64,000 bases of DNA from an uncultured Prevotella sp. Its GTDB lineage: Bacteria; Bacteroidota; Bacteroidia; Bacteroidales; Bacteroidaceae. Numbering within the stretch: the stretch's first letter is position 1; each line of letters starts with the position of its first letter. Made by a program: the position numbers and the translations under genes. The stretch covers positions 34,417 through 98,416 of the forward strand of contig CAKPZJ010000007.1 of assembly GCA_934204655.1 (NCBI GenBank), given 5' to 3'. This document shows positions 20,665 to 25,436 of the stretch, piece after piece. The notes below the pieces were generated by a model. It ran no database searches and was not told where the DNA came from. It worked only from the letters and a program-made list of their open reading frames with translations.

Positions 20665-22110
20665 ATGGCAGAAAAAGTAAAGAACGAGTTTGTCAAGCAG
20701 GTAGCCGATCAGAAATACGAGTTCGGCTTTACCACCAATGTGCAGACAGACATTATTGATAAGGGCCTCAACGAGCAGGTGGTTCGCCTCATCTCGCAGA
20801 AGAAGGGCGAGCCCGAGTGGCTGCTCGACTTCAGGCTCCGGGCTTTCCGTCACTGGCTCACGCTCGAACAGCCCACATGGGGGCATGTACATGTGCCAGA
20901 GATAGACTATCAGGCCATATCCTACTATGCCGACCCGATGGCCAAGAAGCCCAAGAACGATAAGATAGACCCCGAGCTGGAAAAGACTTTCGACAAGTTG
21001 GGTATCCCCCTGGAGGAGCGGCTGGCTCTGAGCGGCACGGCCGTGGACGCCATCATGGACTCGGTATCCGTGAAGACCACATTCAAGGACCAGCTGCGCG
21101 CCAAGGGTGTCATCTTCAGCAGCATAGGCGAGGCCGTGAAAGAGCACCCTGACCTGGTGCGCGAGTACCTTGGCTCGGTGGTTCCCTATCGTGACAATTT
21201 CTTCGCGGCCCTTAACAGCGCCGTGTTCAGCGATGGTTCCTTCGTCTATATCCCTAAGGGCGTAAGGTGCCCGATGGAGCTCAGCAGTTACTTCCGTATC
21301 AACGCGCGCAATACGGGCCAGTTCGAGCGCACGCTCATTGTGGCCGAGGACGACAGCTACGTCTCCTACCTGGAGGGCTGTACCGCCCCGATGCGCGATG
21401 AGAACCAGCTGCACGCTGCCATCGTCGAGATAATAGTCAAGGACAATGCCGAGGTAAAATACTCTACCGTACAGAACTGGTACCCGGGCGACGAGCACGG
21501 CAAAGGTGGCGTGCTCAACCTGGTTACTAAGCGCGGCGACCTGCGGGGTGTCAACTCCAAGCTCAGTTGGACCCAGGTCGAGACGGGCTCGGCCATTACG
21601 TGGAAATACCCTTCTTGCGTGCTACGCGGCGACAACTCGCAGGCCGAGTTCTATTCTGTTGCCGTAACCAACCATTATCAGGAGGCCGACACGGGTACCA
21701 AGATGATACACATCGGCAAGAACACCAAGAGCACCATCATCTCCAAAGGTATCTCGGCTGGTCACAGCCAGAACTCTTACCGTGGACTGGTGCGTGCCAC
21801 CAGTAACGCCGACAACGCCCGCAACTATAGTTCGTGCGACTCGTTGCTGTTAGGTTCCGACTGTGGTGCCCACACCTTCCCCTACATGGACATACACAAC
21901 GACAGTGCCATCGTGGAGCACGAGGCAACCACCTCCAAGATATCCGAGGACCAGTTGTTCTACTGCAATCAGCGCGGCATACCCACCGAGCAGGCCGTGG
22001 GCCTCATCGTGAACGGCTACGCCAAGGAGGTACTCAACAAGCTGCCCATGGAGTTTGCCGTAGAGGCACAGAAGCTGCTCAGTGTATCACTCGAAGGAAC
22101 TGTAGGATAA
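20665..22110 (+). CDS. sufB: Fe-S cluster assembly scaffold protein SufB
   Basis: About 481 residues, normal SufB length, starting [20 protein letters not shown]. Conserved segments include [21 protein letters not shown], cut here by function: the Cys in this stretch, SYLEGCTAP, and [21 protein letters not shown] near the C-terminus. It forms the SufBCD complex that builds Fe-S clusters. The final 60 bp (22051-22110), coding for [19 protein letters not shown] and the stop codon, are repeated exactly at 23820-23879. A restriction-modification cassette lies between the two copies, so sufB itself remains complete. Confidence 0.97.
22051..22110 (+). repeat. 60-bp direct repeat, left copy (sufB 3' end)
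   Basis: This 60-bp stretch is identical, base for base, to 23820-23879. It comprises 19 sense codons and the TAA of sufB. The bases flanking the two copies differ, so the duplication is exactly 60 bp. It is the left boundary of the restriction-modification cassette. Confidence 0.97.
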
Positions 22111-22143
22111 ATCTGGGTTATCTAAAATCTCAATATAAGGGCT

Positions 22144-23247
22144 ATGAGTTATCAATCAATAGACACTTTACAAAACACGCTTAAAGATACCGTCTTCGCG
22201 CATACCAAAGATGCCAAGAAAGCTGCTGGTAGAGCGCTGGGGACTATCGTAGAGCTAATAACTTATTATTTGCTCAGAGAGTGGGGGGTGTCCGATAATA
22301 TAGCTATTGAGAGAGGGCTTCCCGAATTTGGTGACAAGGAAATTCTACACCATGTCGAATTTACTTTGCATCCAGTTCTAAGACTTTCAAAAGTAACTGC
22401 GGATAGTCTCCCTATAACCTCTTCCAAAATAATAAAGTGCCTGAGTGAAGATATGGTTGCTCCCTTTGAACGGAAGAAAAGCAATAGACTTTTAGACACC
22501 AACCATATTTTACGAAACTCATGCCTTTTGGCCGAAAATCAGGATGAGTTGTTAGTTGCCAACCTGTATGAAGATGGTATTCATGTTGCCCTGCAACGAA
22601 ACACTCCATTTGCCATGGTCGAATGTAAGCGAGTAGGCGTAGAGGAAGGTCTCAAGAAGGGGCCGCAGACCATAGAAAAGGCAAAGCAAGGTGCCTATGT
22701 AGCTCAAATGACCTCTTCCTTACAGAAGATATGGGTAGACGGTCAACGGTATGGTCTTGTCTACCAAAATAATGTCCCTCTGATAAAACCCTATCAGCAG
22801 CTCCTGGAGGAAGTAATAGCCAGCGACACTCCACTGCGCGACTTCATCCTGTCCATCGGAGTTGTCAGCAATCATGGTAATTGGTTTTCCGCGGAGAATA
22901 AGAATAAAGAGATGAAAGTGCTGGCCAACTCATACGATTGGCTTCTGTTCCTAACAGATGCAGGGCTGGCCGAGTTTGTCACCTCCCTGCTTCTTGCTCC
23001 AGAGCCACAGTACCAAGCAGTAAGAGAATCCTTTATCGCAAGCTATCAAGAAGGGAAAAAGGAGAATGTCTTCACAAAGACTAAAATAAATATAGACGCT
23101 CATAGTGCCTTGTGCGATTTCTTCCACAGGCACAGGGAACAGATAGAAAATTGGTTTAATGTGATAACACCAGACCAGCAAGATATAACAAATCTTAGAA
23201 CGTCACTGATTAGATTGACTAACAAGAACTGGGAGGAAAATGTATGA
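22144..23247 (+). CDS. Probable type II restriction endonuclease
   Basis: 367 residues. I do not recognise the exact family, but several features fit an endonuclease of a type II system. An ExK-like catalytic triplet ECK is at 160-162, at the end of a beta-strand-like stretch (PFAMVECKRVG), followed by KKGPQTIEKAKQGAYVA, a pattern seen in restriction enzymes. A possible acidic partner is in DELLVANLYEDG about 20 residues upstream. The gene overlaps the methyltransferase by 4 nt (ATGA), the usual coupling of an R-M pair. Base composition is AT-richer than the suf genes. The recognition site cannot be deduced. Confidence 0.72.
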   Translation: MSYQSIDTLQNTLKDTVFAHTKDAKKAAGRALGTIVELITYYLLREWGVSDNIAIERGLPEFGDKEILHHVEFTLHPVLRLSKVTADSLPITSSKIIKCLSEDMVAPFERKKSNRLLDTNHILRNSCLLAENQDELLVANLYEDGIHVALQRNTPFAMVECKRVGVEEGLKKGPQTIEKAKQGAYVAQMTSSLQKIWVDGQRYGLVYQNNVPLIKPYQQLLEEVIASDTPLRDFILSIGVVSNHGNWFSAENKNKEMKVLANSYDWLLFLTDAGLAEFVTSLLLAPEPQYQAVRESFIASYQEGKKENVFTKTKINIDAHSALCDFFHRHREQIENWFNVITPDQQDITNLRTSLIRLTNKNWEENV

Positions 23248-23879
23248 CAGCAGGAAGACATGTTAACACTATGAGTCAAAGTTGGGGTACTCCTCCTAAA
23301 TATGTCAATGCCATAAAGCGATTTTGGCATGGGCACATCGGGCTGGATCCCTGCTCCAATGAATATTCTATCGTCCATGCAGACACTGAATTTCTGCTTC
23401 CACTGAACGATGGGTTGAAAGAGATATGGAACTACAAGACAATTTATGTAAACCCACCGTATGGAGCAGACCGGCAGAGAGGGACAACGATTAAAGACTG
23501 GTTGGCAAAATGCGTGGAAAGTCACATCAAGTATGATGCCGAGGTCATCGCCTTGGTGCCCGTAGCACCCAATACTGGGCACTGGAAGAACTACGTGTTC
23601 GGGCAAGCCACTGCTATATGTTTTCTGTACGACACCAGGCTCCGTTTCCTAGAGAATGGGCAAGATACTGGCAAGGGTGCGCCCATGGCTTGCTGCTTAA
23701 TCTATTGGGGAAGAGAGAAGAAACGTTTTTTGGAGCACTTTTTAGAATATGGAGCAACGGTAGATATATCTACTTTGCATGACAAAAAAATAGGTATTAA
23801 CAAGAAAGAGCCGGCTTTAGAGTTTGCCGTAGAGGCACAGAAGCTGCTCAGTGTATCACTCGAAGGAACTGTAGGATAA
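23244..23879 (+). CDS. Dam-type DNA N6-adenine methyltransferase with SufB-derived tail
   Basis: 211 residues. It matches the phage Dam-like family (PF05869 type): WGTPP at 14-18, LDPCSNE at about 34-40, and the catalytic NPPY at 70-73. It should protect the sites cut by the neighbouring endonuclease. The start overlaps the endonuclease stop (ATGA); a second ATG nine codons in is possible. The last 19 residues ([19 protein letters not shown]) and stop codon are supplied by the duplicated sufB end, read in the sufB frame. The original C-terminus was therefore either lost or designed to use a host stop. Confidence 0.85.
   Translation: MTAGRHVNTMSQSWGTPPKYVNAIKRFWHGHIGLDPCSNEYSIVHADTEFLLPLNDGLKEIWNYKTIYVNPPYGADRQRGTTIKDWLAKCVESHIKYDAEVIALVPVAPNTGHWKNYVFGQATAICFLYDTRLRFLENGQDTGKGAPMACCLIYWGREKKRFLEHFLEYGATVDISTLHDKKIGINKKEPALEFAVEAQKLLSVSLEGTVG
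23820..23879 (+). repeat. 60-bp direct repeat, right copy (duplicated sufB 3' end)
   Basis: Identical to 22051-22110. It provides the last 19 codons and stop of the methyltransferase, and it restores the original sequence upstream of the outer membrane protein gene, whose ATG is 2 nt after the repeat. Confidence 0.97.
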
Positions 23880-23880
23880 T

Positions 23881-24651
23881 ATGTATCGACTCATACTGAC
23901 AATACTGATGGTCACGGTGACGTTAGGACAGGTGGCCGCACAGGACATATACCGCTACAAGCGCAACGGCGAGTACAAGGACGACTCGCAGGCACGCTGG
24001 TCTATCGATGCGCACATCGGCGGCAACGCCACCATCAGCGCCCACCGCTCGGATGGCAACGCCCCTCTGTACCGCATAGGCTCTACCAACCAGACAGGCA
24101 TGCTCACCAGTCTTCATGCCGAGTACTATGTGCCCAACAGCCAGTGGAGCGTCAAGGCTGGTTATGAGCACGAGGAGATAAGCTATCTCAAGGGCGATGC
24201 CAACTATGACCTGAACCAGCTGATGGTCGGCGGCCGATGGCGCCCTGCCCCCGGTGACTGGTGGGTACAGCCCTATGTGGGCGCCGACGTACTCTGGGCG
24301 ATAGACGCTGAGCACGACAACCTGGACGGCGATGTCACGATGACCCAGGAGCGCTACCAGTATCACATCGGTGGTCAGATGCGTATGCCCCGCTTCAGCG
24401 CCGCCCCCGTAGTGGGTGCCGATGTCTACATCTTCAGTCATATAGCCCTTCAGGTTCAGTATGGCTTCCGTCTCGGGTTCGGCTCTCACTGCCATGCTGC
24501 CTATACCGACAACAGAGGGGAAGGCAGTACCATCTATCATGGTCAGATACACCGCCATGTTTTCTCCGTGGGACTTAAAGTGGACTTCCCCTTCCACTTT
24601 ACCGAGGGCGACGGCCGCAGACTACTCCAGGGAATACTCGATTCGTATTAA
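23881..24651 (+). CDS. Predicted outer membrane beta-barrel protein within the suf operon
   Basis: 256 residues with a signal peptide (MYRLILTILMVTVTLGQVAA). Alternating aromatic/hydrophobic strands follow (WSVKAGYEHEEISYL, WWVQPYVGADVLWAI, IALQVQYGFRLGFG), ending with strands and a Phe-rich segment (VGLKVDFPFHF). It resembles OmpW/OprF-like small barrels. No function is known to me. It lies between sufB and sufC, where no outer membrane protein is expected. Before the cassette insertion it must have started one base after the sufB stop codon. Co-transcription with suf genes is likely, but no functional link is proven. Confidence 0.75.
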   Translation: MYRLILTILMVTVTLGQVAAQDIYRYKRNGEYKDDSQARWSIDAHIGGNATISAHRSDGNAPLYRIGSTNQTGMLTSLHAEYYVPNSQWSVKAGYEHEEISYLKGDANYDLNQLMVGGRWRPAPGDWWVQPYVGADVLWAIDAEHDNLDGDVTMTQERYQYHIGGQMRMPRFSAAPVVGADVYIFSHIALQVQYGFRLGFGSHCHAAYTDNRGEGSTIYHGQIHRHVFSVGLKVDFPFHFTEGDGRRLLQGILDSY

Positions 24652-24677: not shown

Positions 24678-25436
24678 ATGTTAGAGGTAAGAAATCTGCA
24701 TGCCACCATTGCAGGAAAAGAAATACTGAGAGGCATTAACCTCACCATAGCCGACGGTGAGATACACGCCATCATGGGTCCCAACGGCTCGGGCAAGTCT
24801 ACGCTGAGCGCAGTGCTCACGGGCAATCCGCTCTACACCGTTACCGAGGGCGAGGCCATCTTCAACGGCAAGGACCTGCTCGCCATGAAGCCCGAGGACC
24901 GCGCCCGCGAGGGGCTGTTCCTCTCCTTCCAGTATCCGGTAGAGATTCCGGGCGTTTCGATGACCAACTTTATGAAGGCAGCCGTCAATGCTAAGCGCGA
25001 GTACCAGGGCCTGGAGCCACTCAACGCCAGCGAGTTTATCAAGCTGATGCGCGAGAAACGCAAGATAGTAGAGCTGGACAGCAAGTTGGCTCACAGAAGT
25101 GTAAACGAGGGCTTCTCGGGCGGAGAGAAGAAGCGCAACGAGATATTCCAGATGGCTATGCTCGAGCCTAAGCTCAGCATACTCGACGAGACCGACTCGG
25201 GGCTGGATGTGGATGCCATGCGCATCGTGGCCGACGGTGTCAACAAGATGCACACCCCTGAGACATCGGCCATTGTCATCACCCACTACGAGCGACTGCT
25301 CGACATGATACGCCCCAACGTGGTACACGTACTTTACAAGGGCCGCATCGTCAAGACTGCCGGTCCTGAGCTGGCCAAGGAGATAGAACAGCGCGGCTAC
25401 GACTGGATCAAGGCCGAGGCCGATAACGAAGACTAA
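24678..25436 (+). CDS. sufC: Fe-S assembly ATPase SufC
   Basis: 252 residues, standard for SufC. Walker A GPNGSGKST is at 34-42. The ABC signature is FSGGEKKRNEIFQMA and the Walker B/D-loop is SILDETDSGLDVDA, typical of SufC. It powers the SufBCD scaffold. The leader before it is AT-rich (AATCATATAGATATAATTAC). Confidence 0.97.
   Translation: MLEVRNLHATIAGKEILRGINLTIADGEIHAIMGPNGSGKSTLSAVLTGNPLYTVTEGEAIFNGKDLLAMKPEDRAREGLFLSFQYPVEIPGVSMTNFMKAAVNAKREYQGLEPLNASEFIKLMREKRKIVELDSKLAHRSVNEGFSGGEKKRNEIFQMAMLEPKLSILDETDSGLDVDAMRIVADGVNKMHTPETSAIVITHYERLLDMIRPNVVHVLYKGRIVKTAGPELAKEIEQRGYDWIKAEADNED

Follow-up and report, generated by a model that had tools for sequence, protein, structure and literature searches.

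Restriction-modification (R-M) units are known to insert with long target duplications of variable length (Nobusato 2000, Furuta 2010, as related in PMC3031569, PMC3874152 and PMC4978471). Such insertions carry R-M genes but no transposase, and their direct repeats range from some tens of bp up to about 100 bp. Type II R-M operons in which the R gene precedes the M gene are described for EcoRI and Eco29I in PMC3874152. For R-M units that lack a recombinase, the ways in which they move, become established and sustain their expression are an open question. Here we describe a locus within 64,000 nucleotides (nt) of an uncultured Prevotella sp. (contig CAKPZJ010000007.1, positions 34,417 to 98,416 of the forward strand; this whole stretch is called the window), in which a predicted R-M unit, consisting of a putative restriction endonuclease (RE) and a Dam-type N6-adenine methyltransferase (MTase), stands directly behind sufB and is bracketed by a perfect repeat of the sufB end. 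We consider it slightly more likely than not that the unit belongs to a promoterless branch living on housekeeping read-through, and that its junction with sufB was rebuilt by a duplication joined through microhomology.

The locus shares with the inserted units described so far the R-M genes, the missing transposase and a direct repeat in the same size range, and its repeat is made from 60 bp of a host gene, as in a long target duplication. It differs from them in that relatives occupy the same site without a repeat, that the repeat forms the MTase 3′ end, that the repeat copies seem homogenised and that the unit has no promoter box of its own. With EcoRI and Eco29I it has in common two adjacent co-directional genes with the R gene first, whereas no common sequence family was found, the two genes overlap by 4 nt and the unit lies inside a housekeeping operon. 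In the literature covered, which included few subscription papers, we did not find an operon-embedded set without a box, a SufB-tailed MTase or a homogenised repeat described.

Anatomy of the sufB locus

The locus comprises the following features.

20665..22110, + strand: sufB, SUF scaffold subunit; this host gene has its 3′ end duplicated (Pfam SUFBD_core, 7.2e-78)
22051..22110, + strand: direct repeat copy 1, the last 19 codons of sufB plus stop (60/60 identical to copy 2)
22111..22143, + strand: spacer of 33 nt from the sufB stop to the endonuclease start, without TAnnTTTG box
22144..23247, + strand: putative RE of 367 aa with a possible PD-(D/E)XK fold (conserved E-C-K motif)
23244..23879, + strand: Dam-type MTase (211 aa) ending in a sufB copy that makes up its final 19 codons and the stop (Pfam PF05869, 2.6e-11)
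23820..23879, + strand: direct repeat copy 2, continuous in frame with the MTase and ending its open reading frame (ORF)
23820..23828, + strand: GAGTTTGCC, likely microhomology (Glu-Phe-Ala) between the native MTase end and sufB, from comparison of MTase ends
23881..24651, + strand: omp, outer membrane beta-barrel protein gene (Pfam PF13505, 1e-06)
24678..25436, + strand: next suf operon gene, which we take to be sufC from its position (ABC_tran, 2.6e-22)

A sequence-only reading of the window had proposed a mobile R-M unit inserted with a target duplication, and its description of the anatomy was borne out. The two repeat copies are identical in all 60 bases at a spacing of 1769, the longest exact match over 40 shuffles being 15 nt. 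Between them, the cassette (22111-23819) has a guanine-plus-cytosine content of 0.44, compared with 0.56 for sufB, 0.58 for omp and 0.57 for sufC. The RE and MTase ORFs overlap by the 4 nt reported, and copy 2 is separated from omp by a single base (TAA-t-ATG). An ORF and Pfam check of the unit and its termini revealed no transposase, and no inverted termini were found either; the sole inverted pair in 21500-24500 spans 14 nt at 86% identity and lies away from the ends. This distinguishes the unit from a transposon or composite transposon. The expectation that both neighbours are spared held for sufB and omp, which are intact, but the unit itself seems altered, as its MTase bears a SufB tail.

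Two side observations concern the neighbouring gene. The content of the sufB-sufC gap differs across the genus, being a beta-barrel gene, short proteins or nothing, and the window omp is 0.885 alike to that of its closest counterpart, described below as G001, while the adjoining genes reach about 0.96.

Units embedded in housekeeping operons

For comparison, 90 loci were assembled, comprising the window, 84 loci from genome and viral scans and five from whole-genome searches; some of them are near-identical, and the genome scan covered the best 80 of 229 relatives. Five of these loci carry the R-M unit directly behind sufB, namely the window, L036, L037, L038 and L045. In L037 (Prevotella sp. 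885), L038 (SUG386) and L045 (another Prevotella) the pair starts 15, 29 and 25 nt past the sufB stop, respectively, and the MTase has an end of its own without any repeat. A repeat is thus present at two of the five sufB sites, a distribution that fits independent or older arrivals as well. As a side note, the left unit junction of L038 has a tandem stretch of about 12 nt from the sufB end (AGTGGGATAATT), perhaps a small duplication of its own.

A second setting is found behind prfA, encoding release factor 1, where 12 units (L039, L040, L041, L042, L043, L044, L046, L050, L052, L055, L066 and L097) begin 7-36 nt past the prfA stop. Eleven of these records are named Bacteroidota, the remaining one, L039, coming from a bin named Gastranaerophilales. 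In 10 of the 12 loci pyrF follows next after the unit, overlapping it by 4 nt in four cases, and the other two contigs end first; the pyrF of L039 is recognised by the Pfam model OMPdecase. In the same-genus loci used for comparison, the prfA-pyrF gap measures 9-404 nt in 27 of 29. The location behind sufB or prfA therefore looks like a family habit and not like a one-off jump.

The embedded units also stand apart in the DNA ahead of the RE. We searched the 52 nt upstream of each RE (-60 to -9) for TAnnTTTG, which we take to be the Bacteroidota -7 element, and derived expected counts from shuffles. None of the 17 embedded units has the box (expected 0.13), compared with 24 of 40 other Bacteroidota units (expected 0.98) and 1 of 32 units from other phyla (expected 0.57); the embedded L055 has a box at -13, too close to the start to count. 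While the absence in the embedded units is unremarkable alone, the contrast with the other Bacteroidota units is the finding, and on its account these units probably depend on the upstream housekeeping gene, sufB or prfA, and live on read-through from it. The dependence on the suf operon put forward by the sequence-only reading gains support in this way, and the unit may, as also suggested there, be hard to silence.

The MTase end and the two repeat copies

The arrangement of the window is seen again in G001, which we take to be L036 (record JALEKD010000032, Prevotella sp. SUG78), so the repeat is no artefact of a single assembly. Between the window and G001 the repeat differs by one base, an A-to-G change that is present in both G001 copies. 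Given synonymous differences in 39 of 428 sufB codons, a rough calculation, which uses this sufB rate and a single variable site, yields about 0.001 for independent change in both copies and about 0.1 for one change that was copied over. Recombination thus probably keeps the two copies alike in the lineage of the window and G001, as judged from these sequences; two separate insertions with identical junctions in the window and in G001 are a possible alternative. As the copies seem to evolve together, their perfect identity need not mean a recent insertion, and we would caution that a perfect repeat gives no date for the event.

Copy 2 is in frame with the MTase ORF and supplies its 3′ end. The 7 closest MTases outside the window's own cluster measure 197 aa and terminate in ...LEF(A/V)xC (e.g. 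...TLEFASC), whereas the window MTase reads ...ALEF followed by 17 residues of the SufB end, so that by alignment copy 2 occupies the place of the relatives' own MTase 3′ end. A SufB model matches MTase residues 191-211 weakly (E 0.0034, under the model cut-off). At the start of the repeat the closest native MTases have E-F in 7/7 and E-F-A in 6/7 cases, and as MTase and SufB both read Glu-Phe-Ala at this point, a short homology is indicated at the junction. At the DNA level only TTTGC could be recognised as shared, and it also occurs in the MTase ends of L037 and L038. Longer MTases exist elsewhere in the family, such as those of P0227 (320 aa) and L039 (2227-3171, 314 aa); the C-terminus of the former is a piece of an MjaI-type endonuclease (PF09568, 2.6e-07), and the tail of the latter had no Pfam match. 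The MTase end seems open to fusions.

Homology-facilitated illegitimate recombination combines one homologous arm with one microhomology junction, and a process of this kind is proposed here as one that could yield the window structure. According to our favoured scenario, a Bacteroidales subset of units without a recognisable promoter of its own would rely on the housekeeping gene directly upstream, sufB here and prfA elsewhere. In the ancestor of the window strain and G001, the unit would have been joined on its right to the sufB end by way of a short homology that the 3′ end of the MTase shares with sufB (Glu-Phe-Ala, up to GAGTTTGCC). Through this joining 60 bp of sufB would have been duplicated and the MTase would have gained its SufB tail, without disruption of the operon. 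The unit would most probably have been acquired from a strain already carrying one behind sufB, with uptake through homology at the left and microhomology at the right. Recombination between the copies would have kept them identical since then, and the same recombination could excise the unit cleanly.

A more far-reaching version, which we advance only tentatively and would on balance not expect to hold in full, is that a promoterless R-M branch has become specialised for housekeeping operons, where it follows sufB or lies in the prfA-pyrF interval. Its expression would be tied to genes the cell cannot switch off. At sufB it would have remade the end of the host gene as a repeat, recombination would keep this repeat identical and permit clean loss and re-acquisition, and the MTase would borrow a host C-terminus. 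The family offers a comparative set of units with their own box, units behind prfA, units behind sufB without a repeat and units behind sufB with a seemingly homogenised one, which makes it testable whether an R-M unit gains stability by being expressed from an essential operon.

Competing origins and the nature of the pair

The first alternative is a de novo insertion, in which a unit from another site entered sufB in the ancestor of the window and G001 and generated the 60-bp repeat as a target duplication, as originally proposed. When the same flank setting is applied to every locus, 6 of 75 units lie between exact direct repeats of at least 37 bp, the lengths being 60 bp in the window and 95, 42, 41, 39 and 37 bp in L100, L101, L065, L048 and L096, all five at unrelated sites. 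None of 1002 equally sized control spans, drawn from 71 loci and overlapping one another, reaches 20 bp, and among the loci that also yielded controls the repeat is present in 5 of 68. When mismatches are allowed, the repeats extend to 172 columns (151 identical) in L100, 111 (91) in L065, 67 (60) in L048, 57 (55) in L101 and 40 (39) in L096. These long repeats support a target-duplication mechanism for the family, with which the lack of transposase and inverted termini agrees. However, a third copy of the L101 repeat lies in the same contig, leaving four clean cases beside the window, and no empty sites were obtained for the repeat-flanked loci at unrelated sites.

Further points against this origin come from the sufB site itself. 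In an RE tree of 92 rows, built by a short search without bootstrap, the REs of the window, G001, L037 and L038 group together in a single clade with a Shimodaira-Hasegawa-like approximate likelihood ratio test (SH-aLRT) value of 100, a coincidence under de novo insertion unless the site is preferred; the L045 RE falls outside it with weak support. About 34 further REs (P0002-P0035) of 67-85% identity are without genomic placement, so the sufB clade may hold units at other sites, which speaks in favour of an arrival from elsewhere. Beside this, L123, L124, L125 and L034 make up a side branch of this RE clade; in contrast to the embedded units related to them, they are free-standing and have a TAnnTTTG box 35-37 nt ahead of the RE start. 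An empty site with the predicted one-base sufB-omp junction was found in none of the relatives compared. In a first search, 15 of 16 same-genus sufB loci had no unit behind sufB, but none was near enough to show the exact junction. Among the empty relatives, the one whose omp is most similar (48%), L127, has a sufB-omp gap of 17 nt. The sequence-only reading had held that R-M genes always found here as ancestral suf-operon members would refute it; this applies in part, as three other Prevotella, all repeat-free, carry such genes at this very place. Long repeats at five unrelated sites thus speak for the mobile unit with target duplication and the repeat-free sufB units against it, so that this reading is partly supported, and we regard a de novo insertion at sufB as rather unlikely.

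Conversely, the unit may already have been resident behind sufB, the repeat arising later when the end of sufB was copied onto that of the MTase, by a template switch or by conversion. The three same-site relatives with their own MTase ends and the clade of four sufB-site REs are what this would predict. In the tree of SufB and SufC, however, empty lineages are nested among occupied ones and the starred branches force at least three changes, so the site has more than once gained, lost or handed on a unit, and plain inheritance would need losses or transfers. No intermediate was seen among the loci compared, and we consider such a late origin of the repeat rather unlikely as well.

The sequence features of the pair are best explained by a type II-like R-M unit, compact and chromosomal, and its restriction activity is predicted on the same grounds. 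The MTase follows the RE in 90 of 90 loci, which are not all independent, with an exact 4-nt overlap in 78; in L085 the RE frame is broken. Searches against Pfam and NCBIfam matched the RE to no family, while 3535 homologues were recovered at E <= 0.001, and the E-C-K motif is invariant in those aligned. The RE matches a PADLOC type II restriction enzyme model weakly (0.0059), and its best structural matches, likewise weak, are nucleases such as BsmI and Bax1. The MTase scores above the PF05869 cut-off, which makes it a member of the Dam N6-adenine methyltransferases, from which it differs in being paired with an unnamed RE in the loci seen. It contains VNPPYG, NPPY being a mark of amino-methyltransferases. 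An orphan methyltransferase beside an unrelated conserved partner, as the name of the matching PADLOC model ('orphan methyltransferase') and the missing RE family might suggest, is very unlikely in view of the constant pairing across phyla, the invariant motif and the nuclease-type matches of the RE.

The family ranges over Bacteroidota, Chloroflexota, Planctomycetota, Spirochaetota, a bin named Methanophagales and others. A search of 72,556 plasmid records and 50,697 phage records gave no match to the RE. Within the genus of the nearest genome the pair is present in 7 of 398 genomes, in line with the patchy occurrence implied by the sequence-only reading. The RE-MTase pair can occasionally be located on DNA classed as viral, since four contigs from a viral collection (L116, L117, L118 and L119, three of them alike) also carry it.
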